Origin: Staphylospora marina
GTDB lineage: Bacteria; Bacillota; Bacilli; Thermoactinomycetales; Thermoactinomycetaceae
NCBI RefSeq assembly: GCF_003856495.1
Contig: NZ_CP034118.1
Span: 2,144,182-2,208,181 of the forward strand
Direction of reading: 5' to 3'
Length of the DNA stretch: 64,000 nucleotides
The translations under genes and the position numbers were made by a program. Positions within the stretch are counted from its first letter, which is position 1. The number at the start of each line of letters is the position of its first letter. This document shows positions 2,842 through 49,205 of this stretch, piece after piece. A model generated the notes under the pieces. It saw nothing but the letters and a program-made list of their open reading frames with translations, was not told the DNA's origin and ran no database searches.

Positions 2842-2890
2842 AAAAAGGGATTCAAGCGCCTCTTTTCAGAAGCATGCCTGAATCCCTTTG
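2842..2890 (-). terminator. rho-independent terminator of the E2-ending operon
   Basis: On the minus strand AAAGGGATTCA pairs with TGAATCCCTTT across a loop of about 25 bases and is followed by TTTTT. It lies 44 bases after the E2 stop codon. Confidence 0.8.
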
Positions 2891-2933: not shown

Positions 2934-4223
2934 TCAGATCATTTCCCGGAGCAGTCTTCCGGGATCGGCCGTGTAGCTTGCCAGCGTTTTGGTAAAGCGG
3001 ATGGCATCCGCCCCGTCGATCACGCTGTGGTCAAAGCTGAGCGAAACGTTCATGCGCCAGCCGACGGTCAGTTCTCCGTTCACCACCACCGGTTTCTGTT
3101 CGATCGGATGGATCGCCAGAATGGCCACTTCCGGCGGATTGATGATCGGGGTGGCCCATTTTCCGCCGAGCGAGCCGGCATTGCTGATGGTGAACGTGCT
3201 GCCCTTCAGGCGATCCGGTCCCAGCTTTCCTTCTCTCGCCAGCACGGTCAATTCGTTCAGCTCACAGGCAATCTGATCGATCGTCTTGCTCTCCGCCCGG
3301 TGGATGACCGGTACCAGCAGGCCCCGGGGGGTATCGGTGGCAATCCCGAGTGAAATGGACGGGAACGTGCGCACCACTTGTTTCTCTGCGTCATAATGCG
3401 CATTGAAGTGCGGATGATGCTTGATGGTGGCCGCCACCAGTTTGGCCAGGATCGCCATGTACGTCAGCTTCGGAGCCGACGGATCCTGTTTGCATTCCTG
3501 TACCCGCCGTTTTCGCCACTCGACCAGCCCTTCCACGGGGAGCTCGTCAAAGTGAGTGGCATGCGGCTTGCGGGTGACCGACCAGAGCAGGCGCTCCGCA
3601 ATCACCTTGCGGATCGGGGAAAGCGGCGTTTCCGTCACTTCACCCGTTCCGATCACCGGAACCTCGGCGGTGATGGGCGGTGCGGAAGAAACGGTCGGCA
3701 AGGATATTTCCGCAGGGTCGCCTCCCTTCATCCGTTCGGCATGACGGCGGACATCCTCATCCGTCACCCGGCCTCCGCTGCCGGTTCCCTGCACCTGCCG
3801 GATGTCCACGCCCAATTCCCGTGCCAATCGCCGGGTCGACGGAGCGGCGAGCACTCTTTTGCGGCCGGATGCCTGAGCGGCCGGAGCCGCGGCTTCCGGT
3901 TCCGGACCGGTTTGCACGGCGGTTTGTTCAGGCGCTTGTTCCCGGGGCCGGGGCTGCTCCGCGACGGGTGCGGCGGTTGCGGCACCCTCTCCTTCAATGA
4001 CAAACAAAATCTCCCCGACCGGAACGATGTCTCCTTCTTTCCACTTCATGCCGGCGATCCGCCCGGCGGCCGGAGTGGGCAACTCCACCACGGCCTTGTC
4101 CGTCTGCACCTCGATCACCGGTTGGTTTTCTTCCACTTGATCGCCCTCGGCGACGAGCCAACGAACCACTTCCGCCTCGTGAACACCCTCGCCGACATCG
4201 GGCAAACGAAATTCCACTGCCAT
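2934..4223 (-). CDS. 2-oxoacid dehydrogenase E2 (dihydrolipoamide acyltransferase)
   Basis: A 429-residue E2 core. The N-terminal lipoyl domain has the lipoylated Lys in [10 protein letters not shown] (about residue 44), followed by an Ala/Pro-rich linker, a peripheral subunit-binding domain (about residues 125-160, [13 protein letters not shown]) and a C-terminal CAT domain with the catalytic DHSVIDGAD. It transfers the acyl group from lipoamide to CoA. It ends a minus-strand operon with E1beta (18 bases upstream), E1alpha, phenylalanine dehydrogenase, paaG and paaF. That context suggests a branched-chain or arylpyruvate substrate rather than pyruvate, because a separate pdh-type operon lies at 44-49 kb. 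No E3 gene is present here. Confidence 0.9.
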
Positions 4224-4241
4224 GTTCCCGTCCTCCCTCCT

Positions 4242-5219
4242 CTAGAACGAAACCACCTGTTGAATCGCTTTGGACACACGTTTTGCGTCCGGACGGAACC
4301 AGTCTTCCAGCGCATACATCGGCACCGGAGCGTCATAGCCCGTCACGCGGGTGATCGGCGCCTCCAGATACAGGAACGCGTGTTCATTGATCAGCGCGGT
4401 CAGCTCACCGGCCAGACCTGCCGTTTTCGGCGCTTCGTGAACGATGACCACCCTCCCCGTTTTCTTCACCGATTCGATGATGGCTTCTTCGTCGAGCGGA
4501 TACAGGGAACGCAGATCCAGGACATCGCAGCTGACTCCTTTGGCCGCCCATTCGTTGGCCGCCGCTTCCGCCACCGGAACCATCGTGCCCCACGCGATCA
4601 GGGTCACGTCTTCCCCGTCGCGGACTTTGCGTGCCTTTCCGATCGGCACTTCGTACCAACCGTCGGGCACCTCCTGTTTGACGGACCGATAAAGCTTCAT
4701 GGGTTCGAGGAAAATGACCGGATCCGGATCCTTGATGGCCGCCAACAAGAGGCCTTTTGCATCATACGGCGTGGACGGCGTCACCACTTTCAGACCGGGA
4801 ATGTGAACAAACAGGCTCTCGGTCGAATCGCAATGAAGTTCGGGAGCCCGAATGCCGCCTCCGTACGGGGCGCGAATCGTGAGGGTGGCCGGAAAAGCTC
4901 CCTGTGTCCGCGTCCGGAGACGGGCCGCATGGGTCACGATTTGTTCGAATGCGGGATAGATGAAGCCCATGAACTGGATTTCCGGCACCGGCTTCAGTCC
5001 GTTGACCGCCATGCCGATCGAAGTGCCGATGATGCCGGCTTCCGCCAGCGGTGTATCGATCACCCGTTCATCCCCGAATTCCTGCCACAATCCTTCCGTC
5101 GCCCGGAACACGCCGCCGTTTTTGCCGACATCCTCTCCCAGTACAACCACGGTCGGATCAGTGGCCAGAGCGGTCCGGAGGGCGTCGGAGATTGCTTGCA
5201 CCATCGTCAACTTCTTCAT
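4242..5219 (-). CDS. 2-oxoacid dehydrogenase E1 beta subunit
   Basis: A 325-residue transketolase-type E1beta with the usual GEDVGKNGGVFR segment near residue 27, the TPLAEAGIIG loop and a C-terminal transketolase-C domain. With E1alpha it performs thiamine-diphosphate-dependent decarboxylation of a 2-oxoacid and reductive acylation of E2. The start ATG overlaps the E1alpha stop by four bases, as expected for an alpha2beta2 pair. It resembles the second E1beta at 46998-47978 throughout its length, so the two are paralogs. Substrate preference (branched-chain, aryl or pyruvate) cannot be read with confidence; the catabolic neighbours favour an amino-acid-derived 2-oxoacid. Confidence 0.9.
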   Translation of the reverse strand: MKKLTMVQAISDALRTALATDPTVVVLGEDVGKNGGVFRATEGLWQEFGDERVIDTPLAEAGIIGTSIGMAVNGLKPVPEIQFMGFIYPAFEQIVTHAARLRTRTQGAFPATLTIRAPYGGGIRAPELHCDSTESLFVHIPGLKVVTPSTPYDAKGLLLAAIKDPDPVIFLEPMKLYRSVKQEVPDGWYEVPIGKARKVRDGEDVTLIAWGTMVPVAEAAANEWAAKGVSCDVLDLRSLYPLDEEAIIESVKKTGRVVIVHEAPKTAGLAGELTALINEHAFLYLEAPITRVTGYDAPVPMYALEDWFRPDAKRVSKAIQQVVSF

Positions 5220-6304
5220 TTGCCGCTTCCCCCCATCTCTTCCAGCTCCTTGATTTGCCGCAGTTCATTGGCGCCCGGCTCGGCGTACACATGGGCGAAC
5301 AAATGCGGCGGCGGTGCGGGAACGGAGGCCTCGGCTTCCCGGATGCCCCGGTCGACGCGCTCTTTGCATTCTTCTTCCCATTCTGCCATTTCCTCATCCG
5401 TGAGGAGCCCTTCCGCTTTCATCAGCTTCACGTAACGCTCCAGCGGATCACGGCGCTCCACCCATTCCGTGACTTCTTGTTCCGGACGGTAGCGGGTGGC
5501 ATCATCCGCCGTGGTGTGGTTCCCTTTCCGGTACGTGACGGCTTCGATCAGCGTCGGACCTTGTCCTGCGCGCGCACGCTCCACCGCCTGCGTCATCACG
5601 TCATACACGGCGAGCACGTCATTCCCGTCCACCCGGATTCCGGGGAAATTGTACGCGGCGGCTTTTTGCGCCACGGTTTCGGAAGCGGACTGGCGCGAAA
5701 ACGGCACGCTGATCGCATATCCGTTGTTCTGGCAGAACAAAATGGCCGGCACCTTGAACACCCCGGCAAAGTTGCAGGCTTCATGAAAATCGCCTTCCGA
5801 GGTGGCGCCGTCACCGAAATAAGCCACGGCAACGGAACGTTCCTTCTTCAGTTTGGACGCCCACGCAGCCCCCACGGCATGCGGAATTTGCGTGGCGATC
5901 GGCACCGAAGGCGGCAACAACCGGACTCCTTCCGGAGGTTTGCAGCCTTCCACCCGTCCCATCCAGTACAGGAAAATCTGCGGAAGCGGCATGCCGGCGA
6001 TCATCGCGACGCCGTGCTCCCGGTAAGACGGGAAAATCCAGTCTTCCTTGCCGAGAGCGAGCGCGCTCCCCACCTGGGCCGCTTCCTGCCCTTCCAGCGG
6101 TGCGTACGTCCCGATGCGTCCCTGCCGCTGGAGAATGACGGAACGGCGATCAAACATCCGGATGTAGCTCATCCAGCGATAGAAATCTTTTTTTCTTTCC
6201 ACGGAGAGACTGTCCCAGAATTTCCGTCCTTGTTCCGTCAGTTCACCTTCCGGAGACAAGTGGCGGACCCAAGCGGTCTCTCTTTCCAATTGCTCCAACT
6301 TCAC
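5216..6304 (-). CDS. 2-oxoacid dehydrogenase E1 alpha subunit
   Basis: A 362-residue E1alpha. The thiamine-diphosphate motif runs from GDGATSEGDFHEA near residue 168 to CQNNGYAIS near 197, and the phosphorylation-loop region of the family is seen as TYRKGNHTTADDATRYR. The PSYREHGV segment is typical of bacterial pyruvate/branched-chain E1alpha. It decarboxylates a 2-oxoacid together with E1beta. It lies seven bases after the dehydrogenase gene upstream and overlaps E1beta, so all are one transcription unit. The pairing with an amino-acid dehydrogenase that makes a 2-oxoacid suggests direct substrate hand-over (inference). Confidence 0.9.
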   Translation of the reverse strand: MKLEQLERETAWVRHLSPEGELTEQGRKFWDSLSVERKKDFYRWMSYIRMFDRRSVILQRQGRIGTYAPLEGQEAAQVGSALALGKEDWIFPSYREHGVAMIAGMPLPQIFLYWMGRVEGCKPPEGVRLLPPSVPIATQIPHAVGAAWASKLKKERSVAVAYFGDGATSEGDFHEACNFAGVFKVPAILFCQNNGYAISVPFSRQSASETVAQKAAAYNFPGIRVDGNDVLAVYDVMTQAVERARAGQGPTLIEAVTYRKGNHTTADDATRYRPEQEVTEWVERRDPLERYVKLMKAEGLLTDEEMAEWEEECKERVDRGIREAEASVPAPPPHLFAHVYAEPGANELRQIKELEEMGGSGK

Positions 6305-6310
6305 TTCCGG

Positions 6311-7456
6311 TTACCTCCCATTCCACCCCAACATGATGCGGCGAATGTCCGCCACTTTTTCCAAGCGTTCCAACACCAGGCGGTCGGCCGCACGATGGGT
6401 TCCGATGTTTTCCTGTCTGGAACGCTCGTAGATTTGCAGCAACATCTCGTAGATGGCCCGGGTCTTGGCCAGCACCCGTTCCTCGTTGTAGCCTTCCAGT
6501 TCGTCGGCCACCTGAATGAGGCCACCGGCATTCACCAGATAGTCCGGTGCATACAAAATGCCCCGTTCATGCAGCTCGTCACCGTGACGGTCTTCCTGCA
6601 GCTGGTTGTTGGCGGACCCGACAATGGCCTGGCACCGCAATTCATCGATGGACGTGTCATTGACCACGCCGCCGCGGGCACACGGAGAGAAGATGTCCAC
6701 TTCCACCCGGTGAATGTCGGTCACCGTGGACAGCTCCACCCGATCGCCGTATTTCTCTTTCAGCTGGTGAACTCTCTCTTCATTGATGTCGGCGATGACG
6801 GCCCGGGCTCCTTCTTCCATCAGGAGATCCAACAGGCGCCCGCCCACTTTGCCCACTCCCTGGATGGACACCACACGCCCTTCCAGGCTTTCGGTGCCCC
6901 ACAGGAACTTGGCGGTTGCCCGCATGCCCTGCAACACGCCGAGTGCGGTCGGAATCGAGGTGTCACCGCTTCCGCCGTGTTCCTTCGGCAATCCGACGAA
7001 ATGGTTGGACTCCCGCTTGGCGTGCACGAAGTCTTCCGGCATCGTTCCCATGTCCGTCCCGGTGAAAAACCGGCCGCCGAGACCTCCCACGAACCGGCCG
7101 ATGGCCCGGAACATCTCCGGTGATTTGTCACTGACGGGATCTCCGATGATCACCATTTTTCCTCCGCCGAAATCGACATCGGCCACGCCGCATTTGAACG
7201 TCATGCCCCGCGAAAGCCGAAGCACGTCTTCCAGCGCTTCATCCGTCGATTCGTACGGAATCATCCGGCATCCGCCGAGCGCCGGTCCCATGGTGGTGTC
7301 ATGGATGCCGATGATGGCTTTCAGTCCGGTTCCCTCATGGCGGCAAAAGACCACCTGTTCATGTCCGTACTTCTCCATCAAGGCGAAAATGTCACGCATC
7401 ACCGGCATTTCCCGCTCTTTTTCATCCATCCGGCGTTGTTCTTTCACGCTTTCCAT
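6311..7456 (-). CDS. pdh: Phenylalanine dehydrogenase (Glu/Leu/Phe/Val dehydrogenase family)
   Basis: A 381-residue NAD-dependent amino-acid dehydrogenase. The glycine-rich loop with catalytic Lys is DFGGGKMVI; the second substrate loop reads FTGTDMGT, where leucine dehydrogenases have TAEDVGT. The Gly in place of Ala there is the known Phe-versus-Leu selector. GVGKVGGRLL is the Rossmann motif. The whole protein reads very like the Thermoactinomyces intermedius phenylalanine dehydrogenase as remembered. It deaminates L-phenylalanine to phenylpyruvate. The start is uncertain: four in-frame ATGs lie at 7456-7471 and the family usually starts near MRDIF (7399). 7456 follows a GGGG run. Substrate call is from the motif and memory, not an alignment. 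Confidence 0.8.
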   Translation of the reverse strand: MESVKEQRRMDEKEREMPVMRDIFALMEKYGHEQVVFCRHEGTGLKAIIGIHDTTMGPALGGCRMIPYESTDEALEDVLRLSRGMTFKCGVADVDFGGGKMVIIGDPVSDKSPEMFRAIGRFVGGLGGRFFTGTDMGTMPEDFVHAKRESNHFVGLPKEHGGSGDTSIPTALGVLQGMRATAKFLWGTESLEGRVVSIQGVGKVGGRLLDLLMEEGARAVIADINEERVHQLKEKYGDRVELSTVTDIHRVEVDIFSPCARGGVVNDTSIDELRCQAIVGSANNQLQEDRHGDELHERGILYAPDYLVNAGGLIQVADELEGYNEERVLAKTRAIYEMLLQIYERSRQENIGTHRAADRLVLERLEKVADIRRIMLGWNGR

Positions 7457-7620
7457 GAGCATCATCCCCATTACATAGTCAACTTGAATCCTTTCCGGTC
7501 CAGCCGGAAACATTCCCCCTGCACAGGGAAGGCGGGGAAACGGCTCCGGACGCGTCCCCCGCCACAGACGTCGACGATGCGAAATGCTTGATGCATTCTA
7601 TGACCGGGAACTTTCGCGCG

Positions 7621-8415
7621 TCATCTGCCCCGATAAACCGGTTTCCGTTTTTCCGTGAACGCACGGACGCCTTCCAGATAATCTTCCGTACGGCCCGCCT
7701 GTTCCTGGAACTCGGCTTCCATCTCCAGGATTTCTTCCAGGGACGCTTCGGCTCCCCGGTACATGGCTTTCTTGATCAAGCCAAGGGCCACGGTGGGGCC
7801 TTCCGCCAGCTTTTTGGCGAATTCCAGTGTTTCATCCATCAGTTGTTCCCCGGGAATCACCCGATTGGCCAAACCGATGGAGACGGCTTCTTCCGCACCG
7901 ACGTCCCGACCGGTCATGGCAATCTCGAGTGCCCGCCCGAGGCCGACCAATTTCGGGAGGAAATAACTGGATCCGCTGTCCGGCACCAGACCGATCCGCA
8001 CGAAAGCTTGAATGAACCGCGTTTCCGGAACGATGAACCGGAAGTCGCAGGCAAACGCCATGCTGGCTCCGGCCCCTGCGGCCACTCCGTTCACCGCGGC
8101 GATCACCGGTTTTTCCATTCCGGCGATTTCACGAATGATCGGGTTGTAACGATTCCGGACGCTTTCCCCGAGCGAAAAGGTTTCCCCTTTTTCGCGCACG
8201 GTGCTCCGGTCATTGAGGTCCTGTCCGGAGCAAAACGCCTTTCCTTCTCCCGTCAGGACCACGGCCCTGATTTCCGGATCCTGTCGCACTTGTCGCAACG
8301 TTTGGAGCAGTTCATGGCCCATTTGATCATTGACGGCATTGTACACGCGCGGGCGATTCAGCCGGATGATGCCGACACCGTCCACGCGTTCCAGAATCAC
8401 GGTCTTTTCGCTCAT
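7621..8415 (-). CDS. paaG: Enoyl-CoA hydratase/isomerase, PaaG-like (epoxyphenylacetyl-CoA isomerase)
   Basis: A 264-residue crotonase. PaaG-specific signatures are visible: GKAFCSGQDLNDR near residue 60, SVRNRYNPIIRE, NGVAAGAGASMA, GLIKKAM, and the C-terminal AGRTEDYLEGVRAF. These match the E. coli PaaG pattern as remembered. PaaG isomerises ring-1,2-epoxyphenylacetyl-CoA to the oxepin form. The start is set by GGAGGGG five bases before ATG; longer readings have no site. It lies 34 bases after paaF. No PaaABCE epoxygenase is in the window, so whether the pathway is complete in the genome is unknown; a general enoyl-CoA isomerase is the alternative. Confidence 0.82.
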   Translation of the reverse strand: MSEKTVILERVDGVGIIRLNRPRVYNAVNDQMGHELLQTLRQVRQDPEIRAVVLTGEGKAFCSGQDLNDRSTVREKGETFSLGESVRNRYNPIIREIAGMEKPVIAAVNGVAAGAGASMAFACDFRFIVPETRFIQAFVRIGLVPDSGSSYFLPKLVGLGRALEIAMTGRDVGAEEAVSIGLANRVIPGEQLMDETLEFAKKLAEGPTVALGLIKKAMYRGAEASLEEILEMEAEFQEQAGRTEDYLEGVRAFTEKRKPVYRGR

Positions 8416-8449
8416 TCGCTTCCCCTCCAGTACCGGGATCCCGTACGGG

Positions 8450-9223
8450 TTATTTTCCCTTGAATTCCGGTTTTCTCTTCTCAACGAACGCTTTCATGCC
8501 CTCGCGTTGATCTTCCGACGAGAACAGCATGAAAAAGGCATTTTGTTCGAAATGGAGACCGTGCTCGAGCGTCAAATCCAGCGCCTTCAGAACGGCCTGC
8601 TTGCCCAGTCGGACGGCGATCGGCGGTTTGGAGGCGATTTCCCCGGCGAGCGCCATGGTTTCTTCCTCCAGCTTGTCCTGCGGTACCACCCGGTTGACAA
8701 GCCCCAACTCGAAAGCTTCCTGAGCCGACATCATCCGGCCGGTCAGGATCAGTTCCATGGCTTTCATCTTTCCGACGGCTTTGGTGAGACGCTGGGTTCC
8801 TCCCGCTCCGGGGATCACGCCGAGATTGATTTCCGGTTGGCCGAAACGCGCCGTTTCCGAAGCGACGATCATGTCACAGCACATGGCCAGCTCATTGCCT
8901 CCGCCAAGAGCATACCCCGAAACCGAGGCAATGATCGGTTTGGCAATGCGGCGAATGCGCTCCCAATCCGCGAAGAATTGCTTGACGACAAACTGTACCG
9001 GCGTCGTTTCCGCCATTTCCTGAATGTCCGCACCGGCGGCGAAAGCCTTTTCATTCCCGGTCAGAACAATCACGCGAATCTCGTCATCCCTGTCCATCTC
9101 CTCCATCACGTCGGCCAGTTCACGGACAAGGGTGGTATTCAGCGCATTGAGAACACGCGGCCGGTTCAGCCGGATCAGGCCCACCGCTTCGCGTCTCTCC
9201 ACCAGCAGCAGCGGTTCACTCAT
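8450..9223 (-). CDS. paaF: Enoyl-CoA hydratase, PaaF-like
   Basis: A 257-residue crotonase, the usual length. It has the oxyanion-hole segment AFAAGADIQEMAE near residue 64, SGYALGGGNELAM near 104 with the first catalytic Glu after GGGNE, and EINLGVIPGAGGTQRL near 135 with the second Glu region. This matches true hydratases, and within the family PaaF (2,3-dehydroadipyl-CoA hydratase) is close. It adds water to an enoyl-CoA double bond. It is first in the operon that continues with paaG and phenylalanine dehydrogenase, and the promoter with an internal palindrome at 9304-9332 lies 80 bases upstream. A short-chain fatty acid hydratase is the alternative. Confidence 0.82.
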   Translation of the reverse strand: MSEPLLLVERREAVGLIRLNRPRVLNALNTTLVRELADVMEEMDRDDEIRVIVLTGNEKAFAAGADIQEMAETTPVQFVVKQFFADWERIRRIAKPIIASVSGYALGGGNELAMCCDMIVASETARFGQPEINLGVIPGAGGTQRLTKAVGKMKAMELILTGRMMSAQEAFELGLVNRVVPQDKLEEETMALAGEIASKPPIAVRLGKQAVLKALDLTLEHGLHFEQNAFFMLFSSEDQREGMKAFVEKRKPEFKGK

Positions 9224-9303
9224 TCCAACATCTCCTCCCCGGGAGAAAGCGTTTACATACCATACTTTAAAAAAAAATGAATTTATTCAGATGAACTGCC
9301 TTC

Positions 9304-9332
9304 ATTTTACCAAACAAGCGGTTGTTTGTCAG
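9304..9332 (-). promoter_or_regulatory. Sigma-A promoter with palindromic operator ahead of paaF operon
   Basis: On the minus strand CTGACA is followed after 17 bases by TAAAAT. The spacer is filled by an inverted repeat, CAAACAA and TTGTTTG separated by four bases (9311-9328). The palindrome size fits a TetR-type repressor such as PaaR or FadR (inference). Confidence 0.65.
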
Positions 9333-9435: not shown

Positions 9436-9720
9436 TCAACGATCCGAATACGGTTCCTGCCCTCTGCTCAGAACCACTCTCGCGGTGTCTTCCACACAGG
9501 TTTCGCAGATGATCTTGTTTTTGAAGGAATAGAGTTGGCGATCTTGACCGGCTTCGCAAATCACGCACCGGGGCAGGTATTTCTGCAGAATGATGGAATC
9601 GTTGTCCACGAGAATTTCCACGCCGTCGTGCGGATGAATCCGAAGTGCGTCCCTGAGTTCCTTGGGCAGGACAATCCGTCCCAAATGGTCCACTTTCCTG
9701 ACAATGCCGATGCCCTTCAT
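9436..9720 (-). CDS. AbrB/SpoVT-type transcriptional regulator with four-cysteine tail
   Basis: A 94-residue protein. Residues 1-50 are a SpoVT-AbrB swapped-hairpin DNA-binding domain (GIVRKVDHLGRIVLPKELR), as in Bacillus transition-state regulators AbrB and Abh. The C-terminal half differs from AbrB: it carries CVIC near residue 52 and CETC near 74, a spacing that suits a zinc ribbon, probably for dimer or tetramer formation. It is a single gene with its own GAGAGGAG ribosome-binding site and terminator. It is likely to control stationary-phase or sporulation genes (family knowledge). The target genes cannot be seen. Confidence 0.85.
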   Translation of the reverse strand: MKGIGIVRKVDHLGRIVLPKELRDALRIHPHDGVEILVDNDSIILQKYLPRCVICEAGQDRQLYSFKNKIICETCVEDTARVVLSRGQEPYSDR

Positions 9721-9805
9721 CCCACGACTCCTCTCTTTGACTGCTCGGGAGAGGTTTTTTTGCGGGCGGCGAACCGACCATGATCAGGACGGGATTCGGG
9801 TGCCC

Positions 9806-10867
9806 CTACTTTTCGGCGGGCGACGAAGATCCGGAACTTTCCGTGGCGGGTGCATTCGGTTGAGGTTCACCGGATTGGGTTCCCGGCTGTTCCACCGCCG
9901 GCTTTGGACCGGGATCCCCGTTCGGTACGCCCGCGGGAGGATGCGGTTGCTCGTTCGTCGGCGGACCGCTTGTACCGGAAGATTCTCCCGAAGCCGGCGT
10001 TGTCGCCGGTTCTGTTCCCGAACGACCTCCTCCGGTCACCCCGGGATCGGACCCCTCCGTCGTGACCGGCTTCGGTTCCGGCATCGTCTGGATCATCTCA
10101 TCCCATTCCGTCTCTGTCGGAGGCTGCTCCAGCAGTTTGGACACCGGCTGGATGGATTCGGCCAATTCGTTGATGGAGGCTTCCTCCAGCTTGTCGGGAG
10201 TCAGATCGTTGCCTTCCCTGTTCGCCACCAAAAGAGCGGCGTATTTCGCGGGGGAAAGACCGGTCTGTTCCACGTTTTTCCGAACCTTCTCCGGGATGGT
10301 CAACACCTTCAGTTCGACTTGCTCGGCTTGTTTCTTTTTGAGATCGTGGGAAACTTCTTCCTTGATTTCCTTAAGCGTCTTCTCCGCCTTGGGATCGGAG
10401 AAACCGGAAAGAACGATCCGGTCACGCTGTTGAACCATCCCTTTGTCGCGGGCCGCATCGATCATGTCCGCCACAAATTCACCGGCGTCTTCTCCTTGCC
10501 ATTTCGCGCTTTCAATCAAATCATTCGCCGATTTGTTGAGAGGCTTCACATCCACCACGTGACGTTTCCCGTCAATCCCGATGGCCAAACTGGGATTCAT
10601 GTCAAGGTATATATATGTTTCGGCCTCGGCCGGACTGGCGTCAAACAAGGGATAAACAAAAAAGATCCCCAGAACGGCGGCCGCAGCAGCGGAAAGTGAT
10701 GCCAGCCAGGAACGGCCCGCGAACCTTTTCCGCTCCTCATGGAAAAACACTTCTTCTCCCGCCTCCGCCTGGAGATTCGTTCGTCGTACTTTCACAAAGT
10801 CACCGTCCGGTGTCAACACGATCCAGTGCTTTTTCTGCACTTCCAAAATCAATCCGCGTTTCATCAT
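9806..10867 (-). CDS. rsgI: RsgI-type anti-sigma factor for SigI
   Basis: A 353-residue membrane anti-sigma factor. Residues 1-50 form the RsgI N-terminal domain that holds SigI in the cytoplasm. A single membrane helix is at about residues 56-75 (LSAAAAAVLGIFFVYPLF). The extracellular part starts with the conserved TYIYLDMNPSLAIGID region near 84 that is typical of the periplasmic domain, and ends with a Pro/Ser/Gly/Thr-rich low-complexity tail (about residues 255-353). The gene follows sigI by 39 bases on the same strand, the usual order. Family knowledge: RsgI is cut by proteolysis under heat or cell-wall/polysaccharide stress to release SigI. No carbohydrate-binding domain is visible here. 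Confidence 0.9.
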   Translation of the reverse strand: MMKRGLILEVQKKHWIVLTPDGDFVKVRRTNLQAEAGEEVFFHEERKRFAGRSWLASLSAAAAAVLGIFFVYPLFDASPAEAETYIYLDMNPSLAIGIDGKRHVVDVKPLNKSANDLIESAKWQGEDAGEFVADMIDAARDKGMVQQRDRIVLSGFSDPKAEKTLKEIKEEVSHDLKKKQAEQVELKVLTIPEKVRKNVEQTGLSPAKYAALLVANREGNDLTPDKLEEASINELAESIQPVSKLLEQPPTETEWDEMIQTMPEPKPVTTEGSDPGVTGGGRSGTEPATTPASGESSGTSGPPTNEQPHPPAGVPNGDPGPKPAVEQPGTQSGEPQPNAPATESSGSSSPAEK

Positions 10868-10906
10868 TTTTCCCTCCTCTCTGTCCGTGAAATCAGGGAA
10901 CCGCGG

Positions 10907-11623
10907 TCACAAACCGATGTAACCGCGGATCATGGTCAAATCTTCAATCACCACAATGGTGAGCGCAATCAGATAGGAGCGATGGCGACTCAAGGTTCTC
11001 CGATGCATTCCGAGTGCTTCCGCCACTTCCTTGTCCGGCTTTTTCTGAGTGTAAAACCTGCTCAGAAGCGTCCGATCGGAAACCAGAAAGCGCGCCGCAT
11101 TCAGCAGGTTCTCCCGCGTGTCCCGGTGCTTCGGTTTTTTCTTCACCAATTCTTCCAAAGAGATCCCGTACTGTGCCAACCTCTCCACAAAAACCTGGAT
11201 TTCATGCCGGCACATGGCGGTTTCTTCCTGTTTCCGATGTGTTTCAAAAGACATTTCCACGATTTCGGGACGGGTCATGTCTTCATTTTCCGAATGAGGG
11301 GAATGCCATGGAACCAGCCGGTGGTGTTTCTGTTCCTGACGGAAATAGTCCACCAGTCTTCCCCTGAGCACCTTTTCCGCAAAGGACCGAAAGGATACCC
11401 CGTGATCCTTGCTGAAACGGTCAATGGCTTCGTTCATTCCCCGGTATGCGACGGCATATTCATCATCCTGCGGTGAGATCACCCTCTTGCAGACTTTGGA
11501 AGCAATCCGTCTGACCTCAGGTTCCAAATCGCGCAACAGCGCGTCTCTCTCTTCAGGAGAGCCGGATTTCTGCACCGCGAGCACTCGTGCTTCCCATCCC
11601 GAAACGGTTCGCCGGAAAAACAT
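10907..11623 (-). CDS. sigI: RNA polymerase sigma factor SigI
   Basis: A 238-residue SigI-type sigma factor, close to the usual 240-250. The sigma-2-like region contains SPQDDEYAVAYRGMNEAIDR and GVSFRSFAEKVLRGRLVDYF, and the C-terminal helix-turn-helix is KEVAEALGMHRRTLSRHRSY. The start at MFFRRTV is chosen because GAGAGGTG stands ten bases before it; a reading extended upstream by 50 codons lacks such a site. In Bacillus SigI drives heat and envelope stress genes and its own operon. It sits directly ahead of rsgI. No clear SigI promoter could be identified by eye upstream. Confidence 0.9.
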   Translation of the reverse strand: MFFRRTVSGWEARVLAVQKSGSPEERDALLRDLEPEVRRIASKVCKRVISPQDDEYAVAYRGMNEAIDRFSKDHGVSFRSFAEKVLRGRLVDYFRQEQKHHRLVPWHSPHSENEDMTRPEIVEMSFETHRKQEETAMCRHEIQVFVERLAQYGISLEELVKKKPKHRDTRENLLNAARFLVSDRTLLSRFYTQKKPDKEVAEALGMHRRTLSRHRSYLIALTIVVIEDLTMIRGYIGL

Positions 11624-11811
11624 GCAATACCGACACCTCTCCCTATGTATGTATTCGCACCTTTCCTCCGTTTTTTGTCCCATCTCGAACAAAGACCATT
11701 TTATCACGTTTGGAAGCGAATGCACCGGTGAAATGCGTACTTCTTCCAAAAAAATTTCTTTTTCTGAACACAATCCGACCGGTATGGATCCAATTGAAAT
11801 GCCCGAAACAC

Positions 11812-44108: not shown

Positions 44109-45530
44109 TCACTTTTTGTTCACCATGTGGATGGCATGACCGAGGATGCCTTCCGCCGCTTCCATCAGCACCTCGGGCAAGGTCGGATGGGCATGGATGG
44201 TGAGAGCCAGATCTTCGGCATTCGCGCCCATTTCGACGGCGAACACCGCCTCGGCGATGAGCGACGAAGCCTCCGGTCCGACGATCTGCACCCCCAGCAC
44301 GCGTTTGGTTTCCCGATCCGCCACCACTTGGACGAAACCGTCCGCATGGTTCATCGACAGGGCGCGACCGTTGGCCTGGAAGGCAAAACGGCTGACCACC
44401 GGATCGTAGCCCTGCTCTTTCGCCTGTTCTTCGGTGAGACCGGTGTAGGCGATCTCCGGATCGCTGAAGATGACGAACGGCATGGCCTGCCAATCGATCA
44501 CGCTGTTTTGGCCGCACATGGCTTCCGCGGCCACTTTGGCTTCATAGCTGGCTTTGTGTGCCAGGAGAGCACCGCCTGCACAGTCGCCGATCGCGTAGAT
44601 GTGATCCACGTTGGTCTTGCACTGTGCGTCGATGTTGATGAATCCGCGTTCGTCGGTTTCCACGCCGGCAAACTGCAGACCCAGTTCATCGGTGTTGGGC
44701 TTGCGGCCGACGGCCACCAGCGCGTAATCGGCGGTGAATGCTTTCTCCCCGTCTTTGACGGTGGCGCGCACAACCACCTCGTCTCCGGTGTTTTCCCCGC
44801 CTTCAACCATCGCATTGGTGTACACTTCCACACCGAGCTTTTTCAGCTTGCGGGTCACCATCTTGGTCAGGGACGGATCGGTGCCCGGAAGCAGGGAGGA
44901 AGTTCCCTCCAGGATGGTCACTTTGGAGCCCAGCTTGGCAAATGCCGTCCCCAGCTCCAGACCGATGTAGCCGCCGCCGACGACGATCAGGCGTTCCGGC
45001 ACTTCCTGAAGGTTCAGGGCCTCGGTCGAGGACAGGATGCGTTTGCCGTCAAACGGCAGGACGCGGAGTTCCGCCGGACGGGAGCCGGTGGCGATGATCA
45101 CGTCGTTGAACGTGTAGGTTTGGGCCGAGTTTTCGGTGGTGACGCGAACGGAATTGGGACCGCTGAAATACGCTTCTCCCTGGATCACTTCGACGCCGTT
45201 GCCCTTGAGCAGGGTTTTCACGCCGCCGGTCAGCTTTTTCACCACGCCGTTTTTCCACTCGATCAGTTTGGGCATGTTGACGGTGACGTCTCCGGACACC
45301 TCGATGCCCATCTCACCGGCTTCGCGCACGGCAACCGCACGCTCCGCCGCGGAGATGATCGCTTTGGAAGGAATGCATCCGCGATTGAGACAGACGCCGC
45401 CCACATTGTCCTTGTCAACGAGGACCACGCTGCGGCCCAGCTGGGCGGCGCGGATGGCGGCCACATACCCTCCGGGGCCCGCACCGATGACGAGAACGTC
45501 GACTTCTTGCGCCAGATCTCCCACTACCAT
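44109..45530 (-). CDS. pdhD: Dihydrolipoamide dehydrogenase (E3)
   Basis: A 473-residue flavoprotein disulfide reductase. The FAD motif is GAGPGGYVAAIRAAQLG near residue 16, the redox pair is in GGVCLNRGCIPSK near 44, the NAD motif is GGGYIGLELG near 188, and the dimer His-Glu is in AHPTLPEVLMEA near 450. There is no N-terminal lipoyl domain. It re-oxidises dihydrolipoamide. Last gene of pdhA-pdhB-pdhC-lpd; the E2 stop is two bases upstream. Since the other 2-oxoacid complex at 3-6 kb lacks E3, this may serve both. Confidence 0.93.
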   Translation of the reverse strand: MVVGDLAQEVDVLVIGAGPGGYVAAIRAAQLGRSVVLVDKDNVGGVCLNRGCIPSKAIISAAERAVAVREAGEMGIEVSGDVTVNMPKLIEWKNGVVKKLTGGVKTLLKGNGVEVIQGEAYFSGPNSVRVTTENSAQTYTFNDVIIATGSRPAELRVLPFDGKRILSSTEALNLQEVPERLIVVGGGYIGLELGTAFAKLGSKVTILEGTSSLLPGTDPSLTKMVTRKLKKLGVEVYTNAMVEGGENTGDEVVVRATVKDGEKAFTADYALVAVGRKPNTDELGLQFAGVETDERGFINIDAQCKTNVDHIYAIGDCAGGALLAHKASYEAKVAAEAMCGQNSVIDWQAMPFVIFSDPEIAYTGLTEEQAKEQGYDPVVSRFAFQANGRALSMNHADGFVQVVADRETKRVLGVQIVGPEASSLIAEAVFAVEMGANAEDLALTIHAHPTLPEVLMEAAEGILGHAIHMVNKK

Positions 45531-45532
45531 GT

Positions 45533-46822
45533 TTACCTCATCTCCATCATCAACAGATTGGGCGTTTCAAGCAGCTGCTTGACACGCATCAGGAAGCGGG
45601 CCGCCACGTCGCCGTCGATCAGGCGATGGTCGAAGCTGAGCGAGACGAACATCTGCGGACGGATGGCGATTTCTCCATTGACCGCCACCGGTTTTTCCTT
45701 GATGGCGCCCACGCCGAGGATCGCCACTTCCGGATAATTGATGACCGGTGTGAAGAATTGACCGCCGTAACCGCCGATGTTGGAAATGGTGAAGGTGCTG
45801 CCTTTCAGCTCGGACGGCTCCAGTTTCATGGTTCTTGCCCGGGCCGCCTTGTCGCTGATTTCACCCGCCAGTTCGAAGATGGACTTTTTGTCGGCGTCGC
45901 GCAGGACCGGTACGAGCAGGCCTCCGTCCGTCGCCGCCGCCATGCCGATATGATAGTAATGCTTGATGACGATTTCTTCCTTTTCATCGTCGATGGACGC
46001 GTTCAGCGTCGGGAATTCGCGCAGTGCCGCAATGACTGCCTTGATGATGAACGGCATGTACGTGAGCTTGATGTTGCGCTGTTCGGCAACCGTTTTGCCC
46101 CAGTTGCGCAGGGCGATCAGTTCGGTGACGTCCACTTCGTCCATCAGAGTGACATGCGGAGCGGTGTGTTTGCTCTCCACCATCCGTTTGGCGATGGTGC
46201 GACGGATGCCGCGCAGCGGGATGCGCTCCTCGAGGCCCGCCGCCGCTTTTTCCGGAGCCGCTTCCGCAGCGGGTGCCTTCACTTCTTCATGCTGCACCGC
46301 TTCCACTTTTTCATTATCGGACACTTGCCCGCCTTGCGCAAATCGTTTCACGTCTTCCGCCAAAATCCGGCCGTGTTTGCCGCTTCCTTTCACCTTGGTG
46401 AGATCCACGCCCAATTCGCGGGCCAGTTTGCGCACGGACGGCATGGCCAGCACGGAAGCTCTGCCCTTTTCCGGCTGAGCGGTTGCGGTCGCTGCCGGTG
46501 TTTCCTCCGTCTTCGCCTCAACGGTTTCGACGGGCTTGCTTTCCGTTTGGGCCGGTGCGGCCGATTCGGCGGGAGCTTCCGAACCCTCTTCGTCGATCAC
46601 GGCGATCACCGAGTGAACCAAGGCGATTTCTCCCTCTTTCACCCGGAGCTCACGCACCCGACCGGTGACCGGGGACGGAATTTCCACGACGGCTTTGTCG
46701 GTTTGCACTTCGGCAAAGGTGTCAAACTCCTGGATGGTGTCCCCTTCTTTGACGTAAAGCTTGACGATTTCCCCTTCGTGAATGCCTTCGCCCACATCGG
46801 GGAGCTTGAATTCATACGCCAC
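45533..46822 (-). CDS. pdhC: Pyruvate dehydrogenase complex E2 (dihydrolipoamide acetyltransferase)
   Basis: A 429-residue E2. Lipoyl domain with Lys in [10 protein letters not shown] (about residue 43), Ala/Pro/Glu linker, E1/E3-binding domain ([16 protein letters not shown] near 130) and CAT domain with [11 protein letters not shown] near 400. The start is GTG with GGGAGGATG nine bases before it; the upstream reading has no site. It lies 175 bases after E1beta, an interval without a gene but with an AAGCCGC/GCGGCTT inverted repeat, perhaps adding control. Paralog of the E2 at 2934. Confidence 0.93.
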
Positions 46823-46997
46823 GAGCGCATCCTCCCATCTTGCTTCTCGTTTTGCCGATCCCTGTGTCTTGTGACCAATCTGTTGACAGCGTCCCGAAAC
46901 GATCGCGAACCTCGGGGGAAACGGAACGCCCGTAAGCCGCCTTCCGAAACGGTGCAAAGCGGCTTCGCGGACGTTCCGGTGCCTTTCCTTCGTGCAA

Positions 46998-47978
46998 TCA
47001 GAAGTCCAGCACTTGATAGATGCCTTTCAGCACACGGGCCGGATTCGGCATCCACTCATCTTCGATCATCTGATAGCCGAGCACGGTGTCGGGGGAAGCC
47101 ACGCGAAGCACCGGCGCCTCCAGTTTGAGGATGGCATGCTCGTTGATCTGGGCGATCACTTCGGCGGCCACGCCGGACGACTTTTGCGCTTCCTGAACCA
47201 CGATGGCCCGACCGGTTTTCTCCACGGATTGGATGATCGTCTCCGTATCGATCGGGCTGATCGTTCTGAGGTCGATCACTTCCACTTTGACGCCGCGCTC
47301 TTTTTCGGCGATTTCGGCCGCCTTGAGCGAAGTGTGAACCATGGCTCCGTAAGTGATGATCGTCACGTCGGATCCTTCACGCACCACGTTGGCTTTGCCG
47401 ATCGGCACGGTGTATTCGCCTTCCGGCACTTCTCCCTTGATGGAGAAATACAGTTTCAGATGCTCCAGGAAGAAGACCGGGTCATTGTCACGAATCGCGG
47501 AAATCAGGAGACCCTTGGCATCGTACGGGTTGGACGGAACCACCACTTTGAGGCCCGGGGTCTGGGTCAGATAGCCTTCCATCGGGTCGGAATGCAGCTC
47601 CGGAGCTTTCACGCCGGCGCCGAACGGAGCGCGGAACACGATCGGAGCGCTGTAACGACCGCCGCTGCGGTAACGCATGCGCGGAGCCTGCACGGCGATG
47701 GAATCCATCGCTTCAAAGATGAAACCGATGAACTGAATCTCCGCCACCGGCCGGAAGCCTTGGGTGGCCAGACCCACGGCCAGTCCGCCGATGCCCGATT
47801 CCGCCAGCGGGGTGTCGAACACGCGGTCTGCCCCGAACTCTTTCTGCAGTCCGTCCGTCACGCGGAACACGCCGCCGTTGGTACCCACGTCTTCCCCGAA
47901 CACCATCACGTTGGGGTCGCGTTTCAGTTCCACGCGCAGAGCGTCATTGATGGCTTTGACCATTGTCATTTGAGGCAT
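46998..47978 (-). CDS. pdhB: Pyruvate dehydrogenase E1 beta subunit
   Basis: A 326-residue E1beta with [16 protein letters not shown] near residue 29, [14 protein letters not shown] near 58 and the typical DFxxE-type C-terminus. It pairs with pdhA four bases upstream. The closest match by memory is the Bacillus PdhB subunit. The overall layout pdhA-pdhB-pdhC-pdhD is the Bacillus order, which supports pyruvate as substrate over branched-chain acids. Confidence 0.93.
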
Positions 47979-47981
47979 GGC

Positions 47982-49205
<1,224 letters not shown>

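Follow-up and report, generated by a model that had tools for sequence, protein, structure and literature searches.

A putative phenylalanine dehydrogenase–phenylpyruvate dehydrogenase operon as an entry to the paa pathway in Staphylospora marina

Described systems and the Staphylospora marina operon

Conversion of phenylpyruvate to phenylacetyl-CoA is already known from phenylglycine biosynthesis: in Streptomyces pristinaespiralis, this reaction of L-phenylglycine formation is attributed to PglB/C, proteins that resemble pyruvate dehydrogenase (PDH; PMC7089894, accessible text). Here, we analyze a six-gene operon located on a 64,000-nt stretch (C1:2144182-2208181; hereafter, the window) of the 2.75-Mb genome of Staphylospora marina. 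The operon encodes two crotonases resembling PaaF and PaaG, a putative phenylalanine dehydrogenase (PheDH), and the E1alpha, E1beta, and E2 subunits of a 2-oxoacid dehydrogenase complex. Based on sequence comparisons, we consider it very probable that it feeds phenylalanine to the aerobic paa pathway via phenylpyruvate and a dedicated complex, without free phenylacetaldehyde or phenylacetate as intermediates.

PglB and PglC are PDH-like E1alpha and E1beta subunits stated to act on phenylpyruvate (PMC7089894, accessible text), and their likeness to the complex encoded in the window concerns this stated reaction. The two systems differ in that the former belongs to secondary metabolism, with a pgl operon that, as described in the accessible text, lacks PheDH, paaF, and paaG. 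Moreover, paa drains the product in the pgl system, whereas it would be the purpose of the window operon. Operons for leucine dehydrogenase (LeuDH) and branched-chain 2-oxoacid dehydrogenase (BCKDH; bkd operons) share the architecture of an amino acid dehydrogenase with E1alpha, E1beta, and E2, but differ in the residues of the pocket, in the group of their E1, and in the genes that accompany them. The paa catabolon of Thermus and Burkholderia, which is accompanied by a TetR-type regulator (PaaR), resembles the S. marina gene set in comprising PaaABCD, PaaG, PaaF, PaaH, PaaJ, and PaaK. Its described entry is phenylacetate via PaaK (PMC6651687, accessible text), whereas here phenylalanine would enter, with a palindrome shared by operon and paa cluster.

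The pathway scheme followed here, which includes a PacL-like dehydrogenase, is that of PMC9007349 (accessible text). In a 2026 survey of paa genes, phenylpyruvate is absent from the main text and Bacillota are assigned almost exclusively to the PM configuration (PMC13186573, accessible text); the terms sought in PMC2653477 were not found. The literature that was searched, in which subscription journals were mostly uncovered, so that novelty is not shown, held no account of PheDH with a 2-oxoacid dehydrogenase complex as a paa entry or as a catabolic module of Bacilli.

The dehydrogenase, the E1-E2 complex, and the crotonases

Six open reading frames (ORFs) follow each other on the minus strand, in the order of transcription paaF (8450..9223), paaG (7621..8415), PheDH (6311..7399), E1alpha (5216..6304), E1beta (4242..5219), and E2 (2934..4223). 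This row bears out the grouping into one operon in an earlier annotation of the window from its sequence (the original prediction); the gene order along the pathway that it also proposed was not found, since paaF and paaG stand first. Domains of the six proteins were assigned with Pfam and NCBIfam, complemented by residue alignments for PaaF and PaaG and by a tree and pocket positions for E1alpha. The paaG ORF (ATG 8415, stop 7621) is open to 8484 and that of the dehydrogenase (stop 6311) to 7513, for which ATG 7399 is the likely start, as suggested by the beginnings of homologues. The E1alpha and E1beta genes share a 4-nt overlap, and E2 comprises a lipoyl domain, an E3-binding domain, and an acyltransferase domain with the motif HSVIDG.

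The best named matches of the dehydrogenase were proteins from Melghirimyces, Paludifilum, and Marininema (69-74% identity); in NCBI taxonomy, Melghirimyces belongs to the class Bacilli, family Thermoactinomycetaceae. Alignment to LeuDH 1LEH showed that the ELFV fold with catalytic Lys, Lys, and Asp is kept, positions that we take to be the catalytic residues of PheDH, and that a TGTDMG loop takes the place of TAEDVG of LeuDH. Gly113, Thr114, Leu291, and Gln293 of the window enzyme contrast with Ala, Glu, Val, and Asn in both 1LEH and the LeuDH of the same genome. Positions A113 and V291 of LeuDH are said, with reference to Seah et al. in 1995, to carry weight for assignment as PheDH, which agrees with the docking contacts given below. 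Gly113 and Thr114 were present in 21/21 rows of dehydrogenases adjacent to E1alpha, a count that excludes duplicate windows and loci fetched later, while position 291 was Leu in 19 rows, Met in one, and Val in one.

Docking to a homology model of Thermoactinomyces intermedius PheDH placed Gly114, Thr115, Leu294, Gln296, Val297, and Glu300 around the ligand (PMC8967036, accessible text). The pocket residues listed for that enzyme recur in the window enzyme, with the difference that one listed contact, Ala135, is replaced by Val. PheDH of T. intermedius was studied as a catalyst (PMC8967036, accessible text), whereas the window enzyme is part of a putative catabolic operon; engineering of B. badius PheDH is the subject of PMC8543943 (accessible text). 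As judged from these alignments, the pocket of the window dehydrogenase is of the PheDH type and not of the LeuDH type. The Phe-type dehydrogenase of the original prediction is thereby upheld at the level of pocket residues, with a preference for phenylalanine itself as the predicted consequence. Solved structures cannot tell PheDH from LeuDH here, because the nearest chains are LeuDHs (approximately 390 bits) and the listed PheDH chains are distant (approximately 182 bits). A plasmid search with the dehydrogenase returned 163 records, every one below 60% identity. Six loci (L021, L022, L043, L044, L051, and L155) carry two ELFV dehydrogenases a few kb apart, and in L021, L043, L044, and L051 the pocket residues of the two copies are not alike.

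In a tree of 71 E1alpha rows (69 loci offered, of which one branched-chain (BKD) row dropped out because of its length, together with the window and two PDB chains), the window E1alpha fell among 60 rows with support of 99/97. The PDH pair (own PDH and 1W85; support 100/100) and five BKD rows (100/99) were separate from this group. E1alphas of PheDH operons did not form a single clade, although only 6 changes were required, vs 22.4 in shuffles. The positions of Phe66 and Tyr94 of Thermus BKD, which presumably line the side-chain pocket, are Thr and Ser/Thr in 42/42 rows of the PheDH-operon group (the window and L082, which has lost PheDH, are counted, and L014 and L177 are identical). The same residues occur in 7/7 E1alpha rows beside paa genes, vs Phe/Gly in PDH rows (2/2) and Phe/Tyr in BKD rows (5/5). 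Together with the linkage of the complex to a phenylpyruvate source and a phenylacetyl-CoA sink, evident from the co-occurrence and neighborhoods described below, these positions point to phenylpyruvate as its substrate. The operon has no E3 gene. A separate PDH operon (E1a-E1b-E2-E3) lies at window positions 44109-49199, and its E3-like protein (44109..45530, minus strand) is a candidate for an E3 shared by both complexes. In locus L160, an E3-like gene adjoins E2 and a sigma-54 activator is also present. Loci L102-L104, from genomes without PaaA/C or PheDH (G014-G016), carry E1alpha-E1beta relatives, with no E2 match in the three loci; those of G014 are flanked by cytochrome bd genes on one side and by an acetyl-CoA-synthetase-like gene on the other.

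The two crotonases were characterized by residue counts in which some loci appear twice. Both glutamates that we take to be catalytic in PaaF-type enoyl-CoA hydratases were found in 41/41 PaaF-like rows, the window protein included, and a PaaG-type Asp, presumably catalytic, replaced the hydratase Glu pair in 59/59 PaaG-like rows, as it does in PaaG of the window.

Association with paa genes and a shared palindrome

The PF05138 profile located PaaA and PaaC at C1:647.6-649.6 kb, in a paa cluster (C1:647-655 kb, plus strand of locus L003) situated approximately 1.5 Mb from the operon. The cluster encodes a TetR regulator (PaaR; C1:646.9 kb), PaaA, PaaB (75.2 bits; cut-off 85.45), PaaC, PaaD, PaaK (623 bits; cut-off 646.3), an EthD-domain protein, a PaaH-like dehydrogenase, a second 3-hydroxyacyl-CoA dehydrogenase-like protein, a PaaJ/PcaF-like thiolase, an aldehyde dehydrogenase, and an FlK-family thioesterase. 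The genome search for paa genes that had been proposed as a check thus recovered PaaABCD, K, H, and J. The placement of the epoxygenase genes outside the window also proved correct, with PaaA-PaaD at this site and zero PF05138 matches in the window, where other paa genes were not sought one by one. PaaE was not seen among the scanned ORFs of the cluster, and a genome-wide PaaE search was not made. Since tblastn gave no paaF or paaG match in the paa cluster, the operon and the cluster complement each other. The 16 paa clusters of the family likewise showed no paaG match and one weak paaF-like match (41%), in G018 (G and L numbers denote genomes and loci, respectively). The EthD-domain protein, located between paaK and paaH (L003:8925-18760), is present in 15 of these 16 clusters.

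Among 23 genomes of the family, 16 contain a PheDH ortholog adjacent to E1alpha, and PaaA and PaaC occur in the identical 16. Fisher tests of this co-occurrence gave 4e-6, or 7e-5 when a partial PaaA in G022 was counted, values that are a rough guide because genomes and genera are not independent. G005 (68% complete), G010, and G013-G016 are without both. The order paaF-paaG-PheDH-E1a-E1b-E2 is kept in 14 of the 16, with both crotonases missing from the operon in G012 and paaG in G018. Outside the family, 378 genomes of the class were counted (398 searched), with thresholds of E <= 1e-124 for PheDH-like proteins, whose pockets were not checked in each case, and E <= 1e-105 for E1a. PF05138 was found in 66/72 genomes with a PheDH-like match vs 72/306 without, and in 116/126 with an E1a match vs 22/252 without; by genus, the corresponding fractions were 31/35 vs 27/97 and 46/49 vs 12/83. 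PheDH and E1a lie at most 1.5 kb apart in 60 of 63 genomes in which both could be placed and at most 3.1 kb apart in the remaining three, and fetched loci of G243 and G361 showed them adjacent. In L143 and L145 (G262 and G127), approximately 3 kb separate PheDH and E1alpha.

Of 20 dehydrogenase loci fetched from outside the family, 10 of them chosen for a listed nearby paaA, all 20 showed the dehydrogenase, 18 E1a, and 19 some core paa gene (none in L148). PheDH, E1a, and PaaA were found together in eight (L139-L143, L145, L147, and L151), and paaG and paaH are the neighbors in L015, L150, L152, and L158. Thirteen further loci came from genomes that lack PheDH but match E1a and PF05138, approximately half of them picked for closeness to paaA. 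Six of these (L163-L168) carry PaaR-PaaABCD on the same stretch as E1; in L171, paaG adjoins E1, and in L170, PaaF and PaaK lie within about 10 kb, while no paa genes were found in five (L159-L162 and L169). Directly 5' of E1alpha in L164-L168, in the place of PheDH, stands a HisC-type aminotransferase, which lies approximately 6 kb away in L170 and is absent from L163. HisC-type aminotransferases often take phenylalanine, and a second kind of deaminating enzyme at this position is consistent with phenylpyruvate being what the complex acts on, provided that the enzyme does not function in histidine synthesis.

A sigma-A-like promoter (CTGACA, 17 nt, TAAAAT; 9304..9332, minus strand) is rightly placed before paaF, in a promoter scan that was overall not above chance (2 found vs a mean of 2.2 in shuffles). 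Between its -35 and -10 elements lies the palindrome CAAACAACCGCTTGTTTG (9311..9328; arms CAAACAA and TTGTTTG around CCGC), a putative PaaR operator, and a related palindrome, AAGCAAACGCTTGCTT, lies 33 bases 5' of paaR in the paa cluster. A joint pattern derived from both sites matched exactly, by construction, only those two in the genome, with no one-mismatch and 2 further two-mismatch sites; a reversed control pattern gave 4 genome matches. Exact copies of the symmetric core were found within 300 bases of paaF in 9/25 paaF-led operons, one of them the window operon, and copies with no more than one mismatch precede the first gene in 10/16 paa clusters; among randomly drawn stretches of 300 bases from these loci, true sites included, the count was 38/4000. 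Clusters with a tblastn PaaR match had the palindrome in 10/11 cases and those without in 0/5; G018 has a site at its Phe operon, yet its cluster gave no PaaR match. Within 1.7 kb upstream of E1, the palindrome occurs in 6/6 of loci L163-L168, in L164-L168 just before the aminotransferase, and in 1/9 other tested loci (L170), vs 200/2000 random stretches. The Thermus PaaR consensus is AACnAACGTTnGTT (PMC6651687, accessible text), and its specified bases are matched at 10/12 by the window palindrome and at 9/12 by the site before paaR. A two-mismatch scan of the window yielded 5 sites, which is at the level of chance (mean 3.48); weight is given to the exact site and its conservation alone. Neither the window nor L003 showed a FadR-like site. 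Taken together, these data make a shared, though not universal, control of operon and paa cluster by PaaR likely, with the palindrome as its predicted binding site. Phenylacetyl-CoA, named as effector of Thermus PaaR in the title of a paper cited in PMC9493321 (accessible text), would be the candidate effector.

Directly after E2, a terminator-like hairpin of 46 nt (2844..2889, minus strand) probably ends the transcription unit: the 101-nt stretch that contains it folded with z = -5.31, equaled by 0/200 shuffles, and the hairpin was not among the sites listed by a simple terminator scan. Upstream of the operon (window 9436-11773), a SigI-RsgI-like pair is encoded, consisting of a sigma-70 region 2 protein and an RsgI-like anti-sigma factor, and a small gene at about 9436-9719 was judged AbrB-like by eye.

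Proposed route, alternatives, and significance

In the proposed route, PheDH would oxidatively deaminate L-phenylalanine to phenylpyruvate with NAD+. The E1alpha2beta2-E2 complex, with an E3 encoded elsewhere, would then convert phenylpyruvate to phenylacetyl-CoA by oxidative decarboxylation, using CoA and NAD+. PaaABC(D), encoded approximately 1.5 Mb away, would epoxidize phenylacetyl-CoA, PaaG of the operon would convert the epoxide to oxepin-CoA, the aldehyde dehydrogenase of the paa cluster would act once the ring is opened, and PaaF of the operon, with PaaH and PaaJ, would complete beta-oxidation. PaaR would repress both operons at the shared palindrome and would probably be released by phenylacetyl-CoA, so that the product of the complex would induce the pathway.

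Leucine dehydrogenases are the top solved-structure matches of the dehydrogenase, and the genome's own LeuDH-E1a-E1b-E2 operon (1.134 Mb) has the same architecture. Both facts would fit a unit of a branched-chain (Leu/Val/Ile) dehydrogenase and BCKDH, with two crotonases for acyl-CoA breakdown. That separate operon itself speaks against such a role for the window operon, as do Gly113/Thr114/Leu291 in place of Ala/Glu/Val of the genome's LeuDH, an E1alpha outside the five-row BKD group with changed Phe66/Tyr94 positions, and the association with PaaA/C; moreover, the solved PheDH chains listed are of a distant type (approximately 182 vs 390 bits). Pocket residues, the separate bkd operon, and the E1 tree led us to reject the branched-chain reading, which we regard as highly improbable. 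A general or second PDH, with phenylpyruvate processed via a decarboxylase, an aldehyde dehydrogenase, and PaaK, is somewhat less improbable, but still unlikely. It draws on the best-fitting family name of E1alpha, the NCBIfam pyruvate dehydrogenase TIGR03181 (452.8 bits; cut-off 411.35), on related E1s in genomes without PaaA/C, on the genome's own PaaK, and on the aldehyde dehydrogenase of the paa cluster, which scores below the cut-offs of the phenylacetaldehyde dehydrogenase models that it matches. However, the window already contains an E1a-E1b-E2-E3 PDH operon, E1alpha groups apart from PDH with different pocket positions, and E1-E2 follows PheDH or an aminotransferase near paa genes in the loci named above. 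In addition, four genomes keep the module without a PaaK match.

PaaK presence was judged in the 23 family genomes by a TIGR02155 match at E <= 1e-60, which was found in 13; among the 16 genomes with the module, G011 and the three members of one genus, G001-G003, gave no match. A gap of 27 bases separates the paaD and EthD matches in L083 and L091, at the expected place of paaK. Matches to IOR, an alternative route from phenylpyruvate, were found at E <= 1e-20 in 6/23 genomes, none above the cut-off, the strongest being in G011 (9.4e-76) and none in G000-G003. The PaaK-less state of G011, which has an IOR-like protein, is therefore less telling, and that of G001-G003 is cleaner. The bypass of the ligase claimed in the original prediction stands as a possible route, but not as an exclusive one, as the S. 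marina genome also has PaaK. About as doubtful as a second PDH is a complex that accepts more than one aromatic 2-oxo acid, such as indolepyruvate or 4-hydroxyphenylpyruvate, or that serves a second role, with phenylalanine as one of several inputs. Small pocket residues could admit several bulky acids, and E1 relatives exist without PaaA/C. Against this, the linkage is with PaaABCD, PaaG, and PaaF, all of which act after phenylacetyl-CoA in the established pathway, and the dehydrogenase pocket is of the PheDH type.

Several observations weigh against a phenylalanine-to-phenylacetyl-CoA operon. The window PaaG scored 270.7 bits against its best family, TIGR02280 (cut-off 345.15), and PaaF 311.4 bits against NF007239 (cut-off 371); its nearest family was PRK05862 (354.2 bits; cut-off 396). 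Regarding specificity of the complex, the pocket Thr also occurs in 11/15 E1alpha rows of other context, E1 relatives from genomes without PheDH or PaaA/C (G005, G013-G016) are nested in the same clade, and E1alpha exceeds the cut-off of a pyruvate dehydrogenase family. PaaK is present in S. marina, and the four scanned aminotransferases of the five in L164-L168 all exceed the histidinol-phosphate transaminase cut-off, so that they could serve histidine synthesis. The palindrome is not found in 16/25 paaF-led operons and 6/16 paa clusters. G022 keeps E1-E2 and paaF, with neither PheDH nor paaG at that locus, and its PaaA is truncated at a contig end. Outside the family, 6/72 genomes with a PheDH-like match are without PF05138 and 7/72 without E1a at threshold, 10/126 with E1a are without PF05138, and PheDH is absent from 53 genomes that have both E1a and PF05138. 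In the locus of G022 (L082), paaG and PheDH are gone from between paaF and E1alpha, and the complex may there have a PheDH-free use.

The phenylalanine-to-phenylacetyl-CoA assignment of the original prediction is nevertheless supported by the paa genes elsewhere in the genome, the PheDH-type pocket, and the separate LeuDH-E1-E2 operon, and further by co-occurrence with PaaA/C, linkage to paa genes, the aminotransferase in five loci, and the shared palindrome. With less confidence than for S. marina itself, but still as the probable situation, we propose that paa in Bacilli is chiefly a phenylalanine-degrading pathway. Its own entry would consist of PheDH or a HisC-type aminotransferase with a dedicated, phenylacetyl-CoA-forming phenylpyruvate dehydrogenase that has an E1 group of its own. 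In many lineages, PaaR would control this entry, which the product of the complex would induce. If true, this would give PheDH, an industrial enzyme, a physiological role and would identify the substrate of a widespread 2-oxoacid dehydrogenase complex, the E1alpha of which is labeled pyruvate dehydrogenase by the NCBIfam model. It would let some lineages (G001-G003) drop PaaK, would explain how phenylacetyl-CoA is supplied in relatives whose paa clusters are split or without PaaK, and would predict a directly testable PaaR-controlled regulon.

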